From: Aequorivita aurantiaca
GTDB lineage: Bacteria > Bacteroidota > Bacteroidia > Flavobacteriales > Flavobacteriaceae
Assembly (NCBI RefSeq): GCF_030410135.1
Contig: NZ_JAUGQQ010000007.1
Location: 1 to 64,000, forward strand
DNA length: 64,000 nucleotides
Direction of reading: 5' to 3'
The position numbers and the translations under genes were made by a program. The notes under the pieces were generated by a model, which had not been told where the DNA came from, did no database searches, and was given only the letters and a program-made list of their open reading frames with translations. Numbering within the stretch: the stretch's first letter is position 1; each line of letters opens with the position of its first letter. Below are positions 1,208 to 9,203 of the stretch, piece by piece.

Positions 1208-2293
1208 ATGTCCGTAAAGTCTGGATTTAATCTAAAAAAACTCGGGTTGCAGGTGCTTATCGCCCTAATAATCTATTTAGTAGTCAAATGGACAATGTTT
1301 ACCAATACCTTTGGTAAAGAATCATTTGATCCCACTTCACTCTTTTATTTAATTAGCGCACTTGTCTTTATTATCGGAACTTGGACAGTTAATGACTGGC
1401 TTGTCTACAGACAAGTAAAATCAGGAAAAAGCATTAATTTTTCCAGCGGTGTACGTTTATTACTTGTAAACTTTATTATTGTACTTCCCGTTTGTACGAT
1501 TGTTTATTATTTGTCTAATTATGTTTTTGCCGAAGCTATTTTTTTGCAAAAACATGAAAACCCCGCATTCAATTTTAGGATTGATGTGCTGCGAGCAGCA
1601 ATCATTGCACTAAGTATAATTGTTTTCAACCTTTTTTATCACTCTATGCAACAAAAAAAAGATATGGAGCGTACAATGGATCGCTTACAAAAGGAATTGG
1701 TAACCTCAAAATACCAATTGTTGAAAAATCAGATCAGCCCCCATTTTTTGTTCAATAGTTTTAATACGCTCACAGGATTGATGTACGAGGATAGAGATTT
1801 GGCTTCAGATTTTGTAACTAGGCTGGCCTTGAGTTACCGCTATATATTGGACAATGGAGAGGAAGATATGGTACCTTTAAAAAAAGAGCTTGATTTTCTC
1901 GATGCGTTTATTTTTATGATGAATGTAAGGCACGAAGGTGCCATAGATATAAAGATAAAAATTTTGGTCGATCCAAATATGTTTATGATCCCTACACTTT
2001 CGTTGCAAATGTTGGTCGAAAATGCTTTAAAACACAACTATTTTTCAAAAGAAAAACCGCTTTCAATCCGTATAGAAACTGTTGCTAGCATGTCCATAGT
2101 GGTCATTAATAACCTACGAAAACGGGATACAGCGGAAGCTTCCACTAAACTGGGAATTGCCAACATAAAAAAAAGATATTCGTTCTATACCGATCAAGAA
2201 GTTACGACGGGGACAACTAAAGGTTTTTTTACGGTTACAATGCCCTTGTTAACCAAAAACGCATTTGAAACTTCTGTGTTGTCGTTATCTTAA
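1208..2293 (+). CDS. LytS/YehU-family sensor histidine kinase
   Basis: A 361-residue membrane kinase. Four hydrophobic segments (about residues 13-30, 43-61, 83-104 and 127-145) are followed by a short coiled coil and a His_kinase domain with phospho-acceptor H179 in QISPHFLFNSFN, typical of the LytS family. The ATPase part carries LQMLVENALKHN (N box) and GIANIKKRY. The partner regulator begins 12 bases downstream, so the two form a two-component system. The signal sensed is unknown. No extracellular binding domain is visible, so sensing may be in or near the membrane. Confidence 0.9.
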   Translation: MSVKSGFNLKKLGLQVLIALIIYLVVKWTMFTNTFGKESFDPTSLFYLISALVFIIGTWTVNDWLVYRQVKSGKSINFSSGVRLLLVNFIIVLPVCTIVYYLSNYVFAEAIFLQKHENPAFNFRIDVLRAAIIALSIIVFNLFYHSMQQKKDMERTMDRLQKELVTSKYQLLKNQISPHFLFNSFNTLTGLMYEDRDLASDFVTRLALSYRYILDNGEEDMVPLKKELDFLDAFIFMMNVRHEGAIDIKIKILVDPNMFMIPTLSLQMLVENALKHNYFSKEKPLSIRIETVASMSIVVINNLRKRDTAEASTKLGIANIKKRYSFYTDQEVTTGTTKGFFTVTMPLLTKNAFETSVLSLS

Positions 2294-2305
2294 TAATATT
2301 ATAGT

Positions 2306-3064
2306 ATGAAAGCAGTAATTGTTGAAGATGAGAGTATAGCTTCAAGACGTCTGGCGCAATTGATAGGTGAGCTGGCGCCCGATGTCGAAATTGTTGCCCA
2401 ATTGATATCGGTTGAAAACGGAATACAATGGTTTAAAAAAAATGAACTTCCAGACCTAATATTCTTGGATATTCAGTTGAACGATGGATATGGGTTTGAT
2501 ATTCTGGATACTTTGAAAGACCACCCCCCCATAATTTTTACCACTGCTTATAACGAATATGCCTTGCGTGGCTTCAAATATAACGGATTGGATTATCTAT
2601 TAAAACCCATTGATAAAAAAGATCTTAAGTCTGCTTTAGAAAAGTACCGTAAGTCTAACGATAAACAAATAGATTTTTGGGAGCAGGGAAAAATGAATCA
2701 AATTAAACAATTGTTCAACAAAGAGTATAAACATCGCTTTATGGTCAAAGTGGGCAACCATTTTAAGTCTCTTAATGTGGATGATATTGCCTATTTCAAA
2801 TCGAATGAAGGACTTATTTTTCTCCACGTACACAACGGAAAAACCTTTCCGGTTGAATATACAATCGACCAATTGGAAAAAATATTGGATCCCATACAGT
2901 TTTTTAGGATCAATCGAAAATTTATGGTGTCGGTCAAGGCCGTCGTCGAAATACACAGTTATTTCAATAGCAGATTGTTGCTGAAATTAGATCCGAAAGA
3001 AAATGATCAGGTCATCGTTTCAAGAGAAAGATGCAGCAATTTTAAGCGGTGGCTCGATCTTTAA
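2306..3064 (+). CDS. LytTR-family response regulator
   Basis: A 252-residue regulator with an N-terminal receiver domain (acidic pair E7/D8, phospho-acceptor D55 in LIFLDIQL, and K102 in LKPIDKKDL) and a C-terminal LytTR DNA-binding domain from about residue 140 (RFMVKVGNHFKSLNVDDIAY, then FFRINRKFMVSVKAV). It lies 12 bases after the histidine kinase and should be co-transcribed with it. LytTR regulators bind direct repeats upstream of their targets. No target can be named from this window. Confidence 0.92.
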   Translation: MKAVIVEDESIASRRLAQLIGELAPDVEIVAQLISVENGIQWFKKNELPDLIFLDIQLNDGYGFDILDTLKDHPPIIFTTAYNEYALRGFKYNGLDYLLKPIDKKDLKSALEKYRKSNDKQIDFWEQGKMNQIKQLFNKEYKHRFMVKVGNHFKSLNVDDIAYFKSNEGLIFLHVHNGKTFPVEYTIDQLEKILDPIQFFRINRKFMVSVKAVVEIHSYFNSRLLLKLDPKENDQVIVSRERCSNFKRWLDL

Positions 3065-3549: not shown

Positions 3550-3694
3550 GAAAGTAATTATTGACATATTGGTTCACAATTCGTCAACACGAATTAAAAA
3601 AATTAGCAGATGTCCCGCTGTATCTGGGCCTAAGGGATTAGGTTCAGACCCCAGGCAGGTCACAAAAAGTTAAACATCGCGTTTAACTTTTTTT
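3550..3694 (+). ncRNA. Candidate small structured RNA of about 145 nt
   Basis: This stretch has no meaningful open frame but has the layout of a small RNA gene: a TAnnTTTG element just upstream, internal hairpins and an intrinsic terminator at the end. The clearest fold is a two-part stem around 3628-3658, where CTGGG pairs with CCCAG, CCTAA pairs with TTAGG, and the loop is GGGA (a GNRA tetraloop). A second short stem, TTGAC/GTCAA, sits near 3561-3585. It lacks the SRP RNA core and a tmRNA tag frame. A flavobacterial 6S-type RNA remains possible, but I could not confirm it. Confidence 0.35.
3664..3694 (+). terminator. Strong intrinsic terminator
   Basis: A 12-bp perfect stem (AAAAAGTTAAAC with GTTTAACTTTTT), loop ATCGC, runs directly into a T run. 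It ends the candidate small RNA and lies 13 bases before the tRNA gene. Confidence 0.8.
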
Positions 3695-3707: not shown

Positions 3708-3790
3708 ACCCGGGTGCTGGAATTGGTAGACAGGCATGGTTGAGGGCCATGTGTCCTACGGACGTGTGGGTTCAAGTCCCATCCCGGGTA
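3708..3790 (+). tRNA. tRNA-Leu (anticodon GAG)
   Basis: An 83-base class II tRNA. The acceptor arms ACCCGGG and CCCGGGT pair fully, followed by discriminator A. The D arm contains AATTGGTAGA. The anticodon stem CATGG/CCATG encloses loop TTGAGGG, giving anticodon GAG (decodes CUC and CUU). The long variable arm GTCC-TAC-GGAC is diagnostic of Leu/Ser-type tRNAs. The T arm is GTGGG-TTCAAGT-CCCAT. The 3' CCA is not encoded. Confidence 0.96.
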
Positions 3791-3921
3791 CTTTAATATC
3801 AAGAATCTTTTCGCTTTGCATTTTCGGATATTATTCTGTACCTCTGTTTAGAGTTATTAGCTCTTAAGTAAACATTCTCACATCTTTTTAGTATTTTCAC
3901 CCAGCTATAAATTTATCTTCC

Positions 3922-4824
3922 GTGGTCAAAACTCAATTTGGAATTAAGGACTTGGAAAACCTGTCGAATGTTAAAGCCCATACTATTAGGATTTGGGAAA
4001 AACGTTACAATCTTCTTGAGCCGGACAGAACCGACACTAATATTAGGAAATACAATATTGAAAATCTGAAAAAGCTTTTGAATGTGGCTTACCTTTACCA
4101 CGCCGGCCATAAAATTTCAAAAATTGCAAGTTTAGATGCATCGGAAATTCAGGTGTTAATACAAAATAGCATCAATGGGGTGGATTCCCAATATTTGGGA
4201 AATGTTTTTAAATCTGCAATGTTTGAGTTTGACGGCGATTTGTTTGATGCTACCCTAGAAAAAATTTTGAAAAAAAAATCCTTCAGAGAAACATTCTCAG
4301 AAGTGTTTGTTCCCATACTTAACGAAACTGGAATTCTGTGGCATTCTGGATCCATAGATCCTTCCCACGAACATTTTATTTCGGAAAAAATCAAGCATTC
4401 CATCATTCAATTTAGCGGCAAACATAAAAAAGTCGCTTCAGAAAGATCCTCCACCCTTTTTGCACTTTATCTTCCTTATAAAGAAATTCACGAAATTGGT
4501 TTGCTTTATGCAAATTACGAATTGGTTTCCGCTGGTTACAGAACTGTTTTCTTAGGCGCAAACATTCCCTCAGACAGCTTGAAACACCTTTTAAAAACTA
4601 AGACAAAGGTTATTTTTATAACCTACTTTACAGTTCTTCCAGAAAATGATAATCTCGAAAAATATCTTTTGGATTTTCAAAAGGAAATTCTTGCCGAAGG
4701 CGGTAGCGAACTTTGGGTGTTAGGTCCCAAGGCGGAAAAAAATATTAAGAAGTCAAAAAATATTATCCTGTTTAAAGATCTCAGACAATTTCAAGAACAT
4801 ATCGAAATTTTCCCCTTTGAATAA
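3922..4824 (+). CDS. MerR-family regulator with B12-binding domain (CarH/LitR-like photoreceptor candidate)
   Basis: A 300-residue protein from a GTG start. Residues 5-70 form a MerR winged helix-turn-helix (FGIKDLENLSNVKAHTIRIW). The middle helical part holds W140 and E150-H151, matching the Wx9EH motif that covers adenosylcobalamin in CarH and LitR. The C-terminal B12-binding (Rossmann) domain has E188-x-H190-x-x-G193, a variant of the DxHxxG motif that supplies the lower cobalt ligand. Family members repress carotenoid genes in the dark, and light breaks the cobalamin-carbon bond and releases DNA. It stands immediately before crtI-crtB-crtZ-crtYcd, which fits that role. The replacement of D by E in the motif is the one oddity. 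Confidence 0.88.
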   Translation: MVKTQFGIKDLENLSNVKAHTIRIWEKRYNLLEPDRTDTNIRKYNIENLKKLLNVAYLYHAGHKISKIASLDASEIQVLIQNSINGVDSQYLGNVFKSAMFEFDGDLFDATLEKILKKKSFRETFSEVFVPILNETGILWHSGSIDPSHEHFISEKIKHSIIQFSGKHKKVASERSSTLFALYLPYKEIHEIGLLYANYELVSAGYRTVFLGANIPSDSLKHLLKTKTKVIFITYFTVLPENDNLEKYLLDFQKEILAEGGSELWVLGPKAEKNIKKSKNIILFKDLRQFQEHIEIFPFE

Positions 4825-4887
4825 TAATCTGTAACTACTGCATAAAAGGTATTATTAAATAAAAGCCAAAATTTATAACCGACCTTC

Positions 4888-4921
4888 TTTTTGTTTAATA
4901 TATTTTTAATTTTGTTAAACA
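4888..4921 (+). promoter_or_regulatory. crtI promoter with overlapping inverted repeat (candidate CarH-type operator)
   Basis: TAATTTTG at 4907-4914 matches TAnnTTTG and lies only 9 bases before the crtI ATG at 4924, implying a very short or absent leader. A perfect inverted repeat, TGTTTAA (4892-4898) and TTAAACA (4915-4921), brackets it. Each arm contains TnnACA on one strand, similar to the core I recall for CarH half-sites. Binding by the adjacent regulator is inferred. Confidence 0.45.
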
Positions 4922-4923
4922 GT

Positions 4924-6387
4924 ATGAAAAAAATTACCATAATTGGCTCCGGTTTTTCCGCTCTCTCAGCCTCCTGTTATCTAGCGAAGGCGGGATATAA
5001 TGTAACAATTCTTGAAAAAAATAGTACCATCGGCGGGCGGGCACGGCAGTTAAAAAAGGATGGTTTTACTTTTGATATGGGCCCCACCTGGTATTGGATG
5101 CCGGATGTTTTTGAGCGTTTTTTCGCCGATTTCGGAAAGAAACCATCGGATTATTATTCTTTACAAAAATTAAATCCCGCCTACCGCGTATTCTTCGGAA
5201 CGGATGATTTTATAACAATTGAAGATTCCATCGAAAAAATTTGCAAAACATTTGAAACTGAAGAAAAGGGCAGTTCTGCCAAACTCAGAAAATTTATGCA
5301 CGCTGCGCTGGACAATTATGAAATAGCCATAAAAAATTTGGTATATCGTCCGGGAATTTCTCCAATGGAGCTCATTAATACCAAAACCATGAGCAAAATA
5401 GGGCAGTTTTTCAGCACTGTCAGTAAAGAAGTTAGAAAGGATTTCAACAACCCAAAGTTAATTTCAATTTTAGAGTTTCCGGTTTTATTCTTGGGCGCCA
5501 AACCTTCCAAGACACCGGCATTTTATAATTTTATGAACTATGCCGATTTCGGCCTCGGCACCTTTCATCCGAAGGATGGAATGTTTTCAGTAGTAAACGG
5601 AATAAAAAATCTTGCGGAAGAATTAGGGGTGACCATCAAAACGAACCAAAATGTTGAAAAAATATTCGTTCAAAATGGAAAAGCATCAGCCTTAGTTATA
5701 AACGGCGAAACGGTAACGACTGATATAGTTTTGAGTGGCGCAGATTATCATCATACCGAAAGCCTTTTGAATTCTGAATATCGCCAATATTCCGAAACAT
5801 ATTGGAATAAAAAAACCTTTGCTCCTGCTGCGCTAATGTTCTACGTTGGGTTCAACAAGAAAATCGACAATGTATCCCATCATACCTTATTTTTTGATGT
5901 GGATTTTGAAAAGCATTCCAAGGAAATTTATGACGTTCCGCAATGGCCAGAGGATCCACTATTTTACGCAAGTTTTCCTTCAAAAACAGATGAAACCGCC
6001 GCACCCAATGGGATGGATGCTGGAATTTTCTTAATTCCATTGGCACCTGGATTGGACGATATACCAGAAATTCGCGAAGAATACTTTGATAAAATTATGA
6101 TGCGTTTTGAGAAATTGACCAACCAAGAGGTTAAAAAATACGTTATATTTAAAGAGTCATTTTGCATAAATGATTTCGTTTCCCAATACAACAGCTATAA
6201 AGGAAACGCCTATGGCCTGGCCAATACTTTGTTACAAACAGCTTTTTTGAGACCGAAACTTAAAAGCGGGAAGGTGCAAAATTTATTCTTTACAGGACAG
6301 TTAACCGTTCCTGGTCCAGGAGTTCCCCCAGCTCTGATTTCTGGAAAATTGGTGGCAGGATTAATTGAAAAAGAAAACAGAAATTGA
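4924..6387 (+). CDS. crtI: Phytoene desaturase
   Basis: A 487-residue FAD enzyme that desaturates phytoene toward lycopene. The N-terminal dinucleotide fold (MKKITIIGSGFSALSASC, with acidic end LEKN at about residue 34 and GGRARQL) and the C-terminal FAD motif (LFFTGQLTVPGPGVPPALIS) are those of the CrtI family. I chose the ATG at 4924, because an in-frame start at 4891 would add 11 residues unlike the family and would overlap the promoter. It shares TTGA with crtB, so translation is probably coupled. Confidence 0.93.
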   Translation: MKKITIIGSGFSALSASCYLAKAGYNVTILEKNSTIGGRARQLKKDGFTFDMGPTWYWMPDVFERFFADFGKKPSDYYSLQKLNPAYRVFFGTDDFITIEDSIEKICKTFETEEKGSSAKLRKFMHAALDNYEIAIKNLVYRPGISPMELINTKTMSKIGQFFSTVSKEVRKDFNNPKLISILEFPVLFLGAKPSKTPAFYNFMNYADFGLGTFHPKDGMFSVVNGIKNLAEELGVTIKTNQNVEKIFVQNGKASALVINGETVTTDIVLSGADYHHTESLLNSEYRQYSETYWNKKTFAPAALMFYVGFNKKIDNVSHHTLFFDVDFEKHSKEIYDVPQWPEDPLFYASFPSKTDETAAPNGMDAGIFLIPLAPGLDDIPEIREEYFDKIMMRFEKLTNQEVKKYVIFKESFCINDFVSQYNSYKGNAYGLANTLLQTAFLRPKLKSGKVQNLFFTGQLTVPGPGVPPALISGKLVAGLIEKENRN

Positions 6388-7226
6388 AAGAACTTTTTGA
6401 CATAGTATCTGAATCCTGCAGCAAAAAGGTAACTGAAACTTACAGCACATCTTTTTCCTGGGCTACGCGTATGCTGGGGCCTTCCATTCGGCAAGATATT
6501 TACAATATCTATGGTTTTGTTCGATTTGCGGATGAAATAGTTGATTCCTTCCACAATTATGAAAAGGAAATTCTTTTTAACCGTTTCGAAACATCACTTG
6601 AAGAAGCACTCCATGACCGCATAAGCCTTAACCCGATTCTAAACTCTTTTCAGAAAACGGTTTATAAATATAATATTGATACCGATTTAATACATGTATT
6701 TATGGAAAGCATGCGGTGGGATCTGACGAAAAACAATTATGCCACTGAACAAGAATTCAACCAATACATTTATGGTTCGGCCGATGTAGTGGGCTTGATG
6801 TGTCTAAAGGTTTTTGTTAAGGGTGACGAAAGAAAATACAACGATTTGAAACAAGCCGCAATGAATTTAGGTTCAGCATTTCAAAAAGTGAATTTTCTGC
6901 GCGATTTGAAAGAAGATCATGAAATTCTGAGTCGGTCCTATTTTCCCAACACCAACTTAAATTCCCTAAATGAACTTTCCAAACAGCGGATTATAGATGA
7001 GATAGACCAAAATTTCAACAAAGGTTACCAAGGTATTTTGTTATTGCCACCAGAGGCAAAACTGGGAGTTTTCATTGCCTATCGATATTATAGGCGGCTG
7101 TTAAAAAAGCTACAGCAAACTCCCGCCGTAGAAATTAAAAACGCGAGAATCCGAGTGCCGAACATTGAAAAAATCGGCCTGTTGACACGAAGCTATGTGA
7201 AATATCAATTAAATTTGGTGAAATAA
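6384..7226 (+). CDS. crtB: Phytoene synthase
   Basis: A 280-residue squalene/phytoene synthase family enzyme condensing two geranylgeranyl diphosphates to phytoene. Both aspartate-rich motifs are visible: D50-EIV-D54 in FVRFADEIVDSF and NFLRDLKEDHE near residue 176. The start is TTG, overlapping the crtI stop by four bases (TTGA). An ATG 28 codons in would cut off conserved sequence. The GGPP synthase gene (crtE) is not in this window. Confidence 0.93.
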   Translation: MKELFDIVSESCSKKVTETYSTSFSWATRMLGPSIRQDIYNIYGFVRFADEIVDSFHNYEKEILFNRFETSLEEALHDRISLNPILNSFQKTVYKYNIDTDLIHVFMESMRWDLTKNNYATEQEFNQYIYGSADVVGLMCLKVFVKGDERKYNDLKQAAMNLGSAFQKVNFLRDLKEDHEILSRSYFPNTNLNSLNELSKQRIIDEIDQNFNKGYQGILLLPPEAKLGVFIAYRYYRRLLKKLQQTPAVEIKNARIRVPNIEKIGLLTRSYVKYQLNLVK

Positions 7227-7341: not shown

Positions 7342-7791
7342 ATGACTATCGTTCTTTGGATATTAATTTTCATTTGCACATTCTGCATTATGGAATTTAT
7401 GGCATGGTTCACCCATAAATATATTATGCACGGATTTCTATGGAATTTGCACAAAGATCACCACCACAAGGATCACGGAAGTTGGTGGGAGCGCAATGAT
7501 TATTTCTTTCTTTTCTACGCTTTGGTAAGTATTGGATGTTTTATTGGGTGGAGTTACTACGGCTTTTGGGCGGGCCTTCCCATTGGCCTTGGAATTTTCG
7601 CCTACGGGGTGGCCTATTTTATTGTCCATGATATTTTTATCCATCAAAGGTTCAAAATATTCAGAAATGCGAACAATCGTTATGCGCGCGGAATTAGGCG
7701 CGCACACAAAATGCACCACAAACATTTGGGAAAGGAAAAAGGCGAGTGTTTCGGAATGTTATTTCCGCCTTTAAAATATTTCAAAAAATAA
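7342..7791 (+). CDS. crtZ: Beta-carotene 3-hydroxylase
   Basis: A 149-residue membrane di-iron hydroxylase of the fatty-acid-hydroxylase superfamily. Histidine boxes are clear: HKYIMH, HKDHHHKDH, HDIFIH and HKMHHKH. The protein has about four hydrophobic segments. CrtZ hydroxylates both beta rings, giving zeaxanthin. It lies 115 bases after crtB and 3 bases before the cyclase gene, in the same direction. Confidence 0.9.
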   Translation: MTIVLWILIFICTFCIMEFMAWFTHKYIMHGFLWNLHKDHHHKDHGSWWERNDYFFLFYALVSIGCFIGWSYYGFWAGLPIGLGIFAYGVAYFIVHDIFIHQRFKIFRNANNRYARGIRRAHKMHHKHLGKEKGECFGMLFPPLKYFKK

Positions 7792-7794
7792 ATT

Positions 7795-8499
7795 ATGTGG
7801 CATCTCTATTTAGTGTTGGATATAGCTTCATTAAGTATTCCCTTTCTATTCAGCTTTCATCCAAAACTTAAATTTTATAAACTTTGGAAATACTTTTTTC
7901 CCGCCACTTTCATAATGATGGTAATTTTTATTCCGTGGGATATGATTTTTACGCATCACGGCTTTTGGGGATTCAATGATAGATACCTTTCAGGCATCAA
8001 TTGGGGAAACCTTCCAATGGAGGAATGGCTATTCTTTATTTGTATTCCTTATGCCTGCCTCTTTACTATTTACGCCTTCAAAAATTTATTGCCGAAGTTT
8101 TCATTTTCGAACCGCGTTACTGCCATTGTATATTTTTCACTTCAAACCCTATTGATCGTTTCCCTGCTTTACTTTTATAATCTGTGGTATACGGCAATCA
8201 ACTTCGGCTATGCAATCCTATTGTTGGGGCTGGTCTATAATTTTAAAAGGGAAGCATTGAATGTGTTTTTCCCGATATTCCTTAACCTTTTAATTCCCTT
8301 TTTTATTGTGAACGGATTCCTAACCGGAAGTTGGATAAACGAACAAGTAGTGTGGTACAATGATGCGGAAAACCTCGGTATCCGGCTGGGCACCGTCCCC
8401 ATAGAAGATAGTATTTACGCTTTGAGCATGTTGCTGACTGTATATGTATTAATGGAAAAGTTTAGGCAGAAAAAAGCCTTAAAGAATTGCGCAGATTAG
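7795..8499 (+). CDS. Lycopene beta-cyclase, CrtYcd (fused heterodimeric) type
   Basis: A 234-residue protein with about seven membrane segments. It contains the two repeated lycopene-cyclase-domain signatures LPMEEWLFF (about residue 74) and VPIEDSIYAL (about residue 200), which identify the CrtYc/CrtYd family in a single chain, as is usual in Flavobacteria. It begins 3 bases after crtZ. With crtI, crtB and crtZ it completes a route from GGPP to zeaxanthin. No ketolase gene (crtW) is present here. Confidence 0.88.
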   Translation: MWHLYLVLDIASLSIPFLFSFHPKLKFYKLWKYFFPATFIMMVIFIPWDMIFTHHGFWGFNDRYLSGINWGNLPMEEWLFFICIPYACLFTIYAFKNLLPKFSFSNRVTAIVYFSLQTLLIVSLLYFYNLWYTAINFGYAILLLGLVYNFKREALNVFFPIFLNLLIPFFIVNGFLTGSWINEQVVWYNDAENLGIRLGTVPIEDSIYALSMLLTVYVLMEKFRQKKALKNCAD

Positions 8500-8618: not shown

Positions 8619-9203
8619 ATGATACATCCAAAGACCGAGCTGAAATTTATTAGCAACCAAATTGGATACGGAGTTGTCGCAACTGAGTTCATTCCCGCTG
8701 GAACAATCACCTGGGCGCTAGATGATTTAGATCGCGAATTTACCCCGTCCAAATTGAAAAAAATGAATCCGCTTTATCAAAACATTTTAGAAACTTATTG
8801 CTACAGAAACAATAAAGGAAATTTTGTGCTTTGCTGGGACAATGGCCGATATGTAAACCATAGCTTTAAAAGTAATTGTATATCCACGGCTTATGATTTT
8901 GAAATAGCCATACGCGATATACAAGCGGGCGAGGAATTGACCGACGATTACGGATATTTAAATGTTACCGAACCATTTAGAGGAATTGACGAAGGAACCC
9001 GCCGGAAAACTGTTTATCCCGATGATCTTTTAAATCATTCCGAGGCTTGGGACAAACAACTTATAAAAAATTTCCCAAAAATAGTAAAGGTAGAACAACC
9101 ATTAAAATCCTTGATTACACCAAAATTATGGAAGGATATTACCGCAATTGCTGAAGGGAAAAAGGAAATGAAATCTATTAAAGAAAATCATTTTTTTGGT
9201 TAA
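8619..9203 (+). CDS. SET-domain protein
   Basis: A 194-residue protein built around a SET fold: an N-terminal GYGVVATEFIPAG strand pair, then N80-H81-S82 in YVNHSFKSN and the C-terminal DDYGY (Y111) that closes the active site in lysine methyltransferases. A C-terminal extension (about residues 118-194) has no pattern I know. In eukaryotes the family methylates protein lysines with S-adenosylmethionine. Targets in bacteria are mostly unknown. It stands alone, 119 bases after the carotenoid cluster, and converges on the TlpA gene. Confidence 0.85.
   Translation: MIHPKTELKFISNQIGYGVVATEFIPAGTITWALDDLDREFTPSKLKKMNPLYQNILETYCYRNNKGNFVLCWDNGRYVNHSFKSNCISTAYDFEIAIRDIQAGEELTDDYGYLNVTEPFRGIDEGTRRKTVYPDDLLNHSEAWDKQLIKNFPKIVKVEQPLKSLITPKLWKDITAIAEGKKEMKSIKENHFFG

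Follow-up and report, generated by a model that had tools for sequence, protein, structure and literature searches.

We propose that a 64,000-nucleotide stretch of Aequorivita aurantiaca DNA (the window) encodes, beside carotenoid genes, a CarH-type adenosylcobalamin (AdoCbl) photoreceptor-repressor of a flavobacterial branch with an inverted-repeat operator, TGTTTAA-N16-TTAAACA, and regulon-wide control, and we put the probability of this reading at roughly 0.7. Computationally, the regulator has the fold of Thermus thermophilus CarH (TtCarH) and equivalents of its pocket residues, the operator is conserved and co-occurs with the regulator among relatives, and the same targets recur. For the wider claim the odds seem about even: that a large branch of the Flavobacteriaceae has a B12-photoreceptor regulon acting through this operator, including proteorhodopsin and Blh in rhodopsin-bearing species, and that its sensor, mostly without the switch histidine of TtCarH, releases DNA by another route.

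The carotenoid locus and its regulator

The features of the locus are listed in Table 1. Two-component genes (1208-3064) lie upstream of merR, and a SET-domain protein gene (8619-9203) lies immediately 3' of the crt genes. A terminator-like hairpin (AAAAAGTTAAAC-ATCGC-GTTTAACTTTTT, 3664-3694) stands 5' of tRNA-Leu (3708-3791); its arms are similar to the operator half-sites, with a spacing unlike that of the operator.

Table 1. Coordinates of genes, residue codons and sites discussed in the text (window positions unless a locus is named)
Feature	Position	Strand	Evidence or remark
CarH-like MerR-family regulator, 300 aa, GTG start	3922..4824	+	wHTH, four-helix bundle, Rossmann domain; Pfam, AlphaFold2, TtCarH match
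crtI phytoene desaturase/3,4-desaturase	4924..6387	+	NCBIfam CrtID 733 bits, cut-off 640
crtB-like phytoene synthase	6384..7226	+	PF00494; start overlaps crtI end
crtZ-like carotene hydroxylase, FA_hydroxylase family	7342..7791	+	PF04116
Lycopene cyclase	7795..8499	+	PF18916, TIGR03462
W140 (TtCarH W131) and H141 (aligned with TtCarH H132) codons	4339..4344	+	alignment
E150-H151 (TtCarH E141-H142) codons	4369..4374	+	alignment
E188-x-H190-x-x-G193 (H190 = TtCarH H177)	4483..4500	+	alignment
crtI operator TGTTTAA-N16-TTAAACA	4892..4921	.	exact; sole exact match in window and genome; kept in relatives
-7 promoter box TAATTTTG	4907..4914	+	within operator, touching arm 2; TAnnTTTG offset in relatives
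Second operator TGTTTAG-N16-GTAAACA	3845..3874	.	12/14 match; 77 bp upstream of merR start
143-aa family members	L081:2561-2986; also L054, L090, L096, L104		

The regulator is 77% identical to that of the closest named record. Pfam matched MerR_1 and B12-binding_2 in the 3922-4824 protein, and an AlphaFold2 model built with 43 homologs (mean pLDDT 90.9) found Thermus CarH with AdoCbl and DNA (5c8e) as its best match among solved structures (Foldseek E 4.7e-14), the predicted full-length fold giving a VIA Z of 18.1 to 5c8e_A over 271 aligned residues. Superposed separately on 5c8e, the modelled cobalamin domain has an rmsd of 2.4 A over 197 residues. By Pfam and the model, the MerR wHTH, the four-helix bundle and the Rossmann cobalamin domain are all present, which is the class I CarH/LitR architecture. 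The likeness to TtCarH (5c8d, 5c8e, 5c8f) runs from this modelled fold to the W-x9-EH and E-x-H-x-x-G motifs and to carotenoid genes as predicted targets. The model also matches photocobilins and CtMerR of Chloracidobacterium (8jbs, 8jbt; Z about 17), the latter a MerR protein whose cobalamin domain responds to light.

The original prediction of a CarH-like protein is supported by the fold match, by the invariant W140, E150 and H190, and by the adjacency of crtI. Identity to TtCarH is nevertheless about 20%, and the score of 69.2 bits falls below the 400-bit cut-off of the NCBIfam CarH equivalog NF052513, which counts against CarH identity; all 43 members of homolog set A2 match the NCBIfam CarH profile at E<=0.001. 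We regard the regulator as a new variant, CarH-like in predicted fold and proposed mode of action and set apart by its sub-cut-off score, its GxxH glycine position and its type of operator. MliR of Bizionia, likewise a MerR-family protein of the Flavobacteriaceae, is iron-linked and has no effector-binding domain (PMC9478572); it was considered as an ortholog and ruled out, as a cobalamin-type domain of 200 residues forms part of the window protein.

The cobalamin pocket

Translation of the gene gave W140-x9-E150-H151 and E188-I-H190-E-I-G193, as had been reported, so that the window protein carries AdoCbl pocket residues equivalent to W131, E141, H142 and H177 of TtCarH. H177 is the lower cobalt ligand of TtCarH in the dark. 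Conservation was counted by alignment in 70 close homologs, mostly adjoining crtI, and for E188 also in nine divergent ones. W140, E150, E188 and H190 were each found in 70/70, H151 in 61/70 and G193 in 66/70. The glutamate that replaces aspartate in DxHxxG, earlier thought unusual, proved to be the norm: TtCarH itself reads E-R-H-E-I-G, and glutamate occupies this position in all 70 close and all nine divergent flavobacterial homologs. From the SignatureFinder motif (GxxW, EH, GxxH, GxxxP; PMC11796333) the regulator has GILW, EH and GANIP, and at GxxH it reads KEIH; this lysine for glycine sets it apart from TtCarH and counts against the CarH-type reading.

Residues 141 and 151 also count against it. 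In TtCarH, H132 is the ligand that takes the cobalt after light and so drives tetramer disassembly, and the H132A substitution weakens disassembly by light (PMC10442372). The aligned residue is histidine in 3/70 homologs (H141 of the window protein and two others) and glutamine in 65/70. H151 is replaced by R or S in nine homologs of the window's own clade. Within this clade Q141 always goes with R/S151 (L003, L004, L006-L011, L015), and H141 goes with H151, as in Thermus CarH, in L001, L002 and L005; the two residues look to be changing in a coupled manner.

These substitutions would suit a protein that binds the operators but is released through another photoreceptor or an antirepressor instead of its own B12. 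Myxococcus CarA and class II LitR of Pseudomonas, to which the regulator may be likened as CarH-type MerR-family light-response repressors, are both B12-independent (PMC9304148, PMC9758184); CarA of M. xanthus in particular is a CarH homolog able to act without B12, which counts against the CarH-type reading, and the operators of CarA are described as inverted repeats, like the site here (PMC9304148). A BLUF-domain protein that may serve as a second light sensor is encoded elsewhere in the genome (G000 contig C49:36809-37069, L304), which leaves room for such an arrangement. We consider it unlikely, however, because W140, E150, E188 and H190 are invariant in the 70 close homologs, the BLUF gene neither adjoins merR nor has an operator upstream at the threshold used, and the window protein has the Rossmann B12 domain that class II LitR lacks (PMC9758184).

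A supply of AdoCbl for the CarH-type protein is plausible, since the genome encodes a PF01923 adenosyltransferase and has ORFs similar to MetH, methylmalonyl-CoA mutase and IcmF; from these genes AdoCbl is likely present in the organism. PF01923 was found in 90/100 family genomes. It was not found in G008 and G064, near-complete genomes with the regulator, and this counts against the CarH-type reading. Loss of pocket residues in genomes without the adenosyltransferase was looked for and not seen.

The crtI operator and promoter

The predicted repeat TGTTTAA-N16-TTAAACA does enclose TAATTTTG just 5' of crtI. The 4892-4921 sequence, TGTTTAATATATTTTTAATTTTGTTAAACA, is the one exact match in the window, where shuffled sequences average 0.01, and the exact motif occurs once in the whole 3.09 Mb genome. 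In most relatives with a separate crtI promoter the exact repeat stands at the same position, a few nt 5' of crtI, which places it beyond chance and, at the level of sequence, supports the proposal that an inverted repeat overlapping the crt promoter acts as a control element.

The TAnnTTTG box was mapped to -12 to -5 in F. psychrophilum (PMC9723704), and it lies at a single fixed offset in 41/46 crtI operators, these having been chosen by their arms. If the box is at -12 to -5 here as well, the crtI start site would be at about 4919, with a leader of about 5 nt, and arm 2 would fall at about -4 to +3, so that a bound protein would cover both the -7 box and the start site. The original prediction had also called the almost leaderless start of crtI unusual. 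A very short leader stands as a prediction from the box, and the geometry is conserved in the family; leaderless mRNAs make up only 5.5% in F. psychrophilum (PMC9723704).

This arrangement differs from that of TtCarH, whose operator, three direct repeats of 11 bp in tandem (nnnnTnnACAn), covers the -35 region (PMC9304148), whereas the N16 inverted repeat here overlies the -7 box and the predicted start site. A direct-repeat reading was tried and rejected, as TnnACA copies on one strand stand 21 bp apart instead of 22, there is no conserved middle copy, and the operators of other genes are often without the G that makes the second copy. TnnACA half-sites do occur, but inverted with N16, and it is the inverted symmetry that is conserved.

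The site upstream of merR (Table 1) has counterparts at -80 in L224 and L225, its nearest relatives, and reads TGTTTAG-N16-CTAAACA in L002. In the window genome as a whole, sites were located before crtI (exact), merR, htpG and a GLPGLI gene, and exact arms with N17 before SDR/DUF2867. A looser pattern gave 17 matches against 6 for the control, so that about a third are expected by chance; a pattern with three mismatches gave 517 matches against 844 for the mirror control and was uninformative. No rhodopsin gene was found in this genome.

The operator in relatives and the predicted regulon

In 100 Flavobacteriaceae genomes the exact motif has 242 sites against 13 for the mirror control; the sampled genomes being related, such counts overstate independence, and exact matching overlooks weaker sites. 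Beyond the Flavobacteriaceae but within their class, 16/28 genomes contain the motif (24 sites against 3 for the control, e.g. L205-L215), and about 150 genomes outside the class have 2 against 6. Spacing was compared in a second collection of 80 named loci, whose taxa partly overlap the 100-genome sample, and N16 proved specific. Upstream of merR, 63/80 loci have the site at N16, whereas most other spacings give 1-8 and N10 gives 17; upstream of crtI, 19/26 have it at N16, two at N17 and none at other spacings. Where crtI comes straight after merR, the repeat is found before merR and is often TGTTTAA-N16-ATGAACA, which puts the start codon of merR within arm 2.

The genes downstream of the exact sites were read in 30 sampled genomes. 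Most frequent were crtI and TetR_C_23 (11 each), fasciclin (10), htpG (7) and mnmA (7, divergent from fasciclin), followed by an unnamed 143-aa family (5), SDR/DUF2867 (3), GLPGLI (3) and SRPBCC (2). Targets recur across genera, among them merR itself, the fasciclin lipoprotein and the TetR/ABC1-kinase operons. Pfam analysis of the operator-bearing units placed photolyase behind SRPBCC and ABC1 kinase behind TetR; GTP cyclohydrolase I (FolE) is in the vicinity of the 143-aa gene, glutathione peroxidase and SDR are close by, and UbiA also occurs. Photolyase, FolE and SDR are also LitR targets, the light-induced LitR clusters of Pseudomonas including PhrB, FolE and SDR genes (PMC9758184). Sites that match at 13/14 or better with N16 precede 9/20 rhodopsin genes of the family, many of them about 45-55 bp 5' of the start codon; other spacings give 0-2. 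G034 has one exact site in the interval separating proteorhodopsin from Blh. Judged by these sequences, the site is a regulon-wide operator that extends beyond the one crtI promoter at which it was noted.

With the genes for HtpG, glutathione peroxidase, FolE and ABC1 kinase carrying or following operators, the set might also be read as an oxidative and photo-stress regulon whose regulator binds AdoCbl but senses B12 or redox status, not light. Glutamine in most relatives at the position of H132, the residue that couples light to TtCarH disassembly (PMC10442372), would fit this too. We find such a sensor less probable still than release through another photoreceptor: the proteorhodopsin, Blh, photolyase and crt targets point to light, and in the related flavobacterium Chryseobacterium lacus light induces crt genes (PMC7064467).

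The site is present in 67/69 genomes with a close regulator and in 5/31 without (Fisher p about 8e-17, ignoring relatedness). That the repeat belongs to a different factor, with the MerR protein a mere neighbour, is therefore very improbable, even though many sites are distant from merR and G079 has six exact sites with no regulator detected, since presence of the regulator predicts the site and the site stands at merR itself, shifting with operon layout so that it lies before merR where crtI follows directly (L010, L030). The G079 assembly is only 81% complete, and the absence is probably an assembly gap.

Proposed mechanism

For the CarH-type reading, we infer that the protein binds AdoCbl and in the dark would sit on TGTTTAA-N16-TTAAACA. 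At crtI the bound regulator would lie over the -7 box and start site and block RNA polymerase; repression as the sign of control is suggested by the position of the operator and by CarH precedent. Light would break the Co-C bond, the oligomer would loosen and the promoter would open. The regulator would control its own gene too. The family regulon would comprise carotenoid genes, proteorhodopsin and Blh where present, photolyase, FolE and glutathione peroxidase, and further HtpG, the TetR/ABC1-kinase operons, fasciclin lipoproteins and SDR/DUF2867.

Light boosts the growth of some proteorhodopsin-bearing marine flavobacteria. In a literature search that took in papers available without subscription, we found no description of the inverted-repeat operator or of a CarH-proteorhodopsin link; nor did we find a named regulator in the literature for the light effects in proteorhodopsin flavobacteria or for crt induction in C. 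lacus. The conserved operator offers a concrete candidate for light switching in these flavobacteria, together with a predicted gene list. If B12 is the chromophore, the light response and the expression of phototrophy genes would hinge on vitamin supply.

The conserved 143-aa family (VGRSFTLLESLKMKGIGSKRM) has no Pfam match. Five genera have it with the operator, and genes for folE, SDR and glutathione peroxidase are found nearby.
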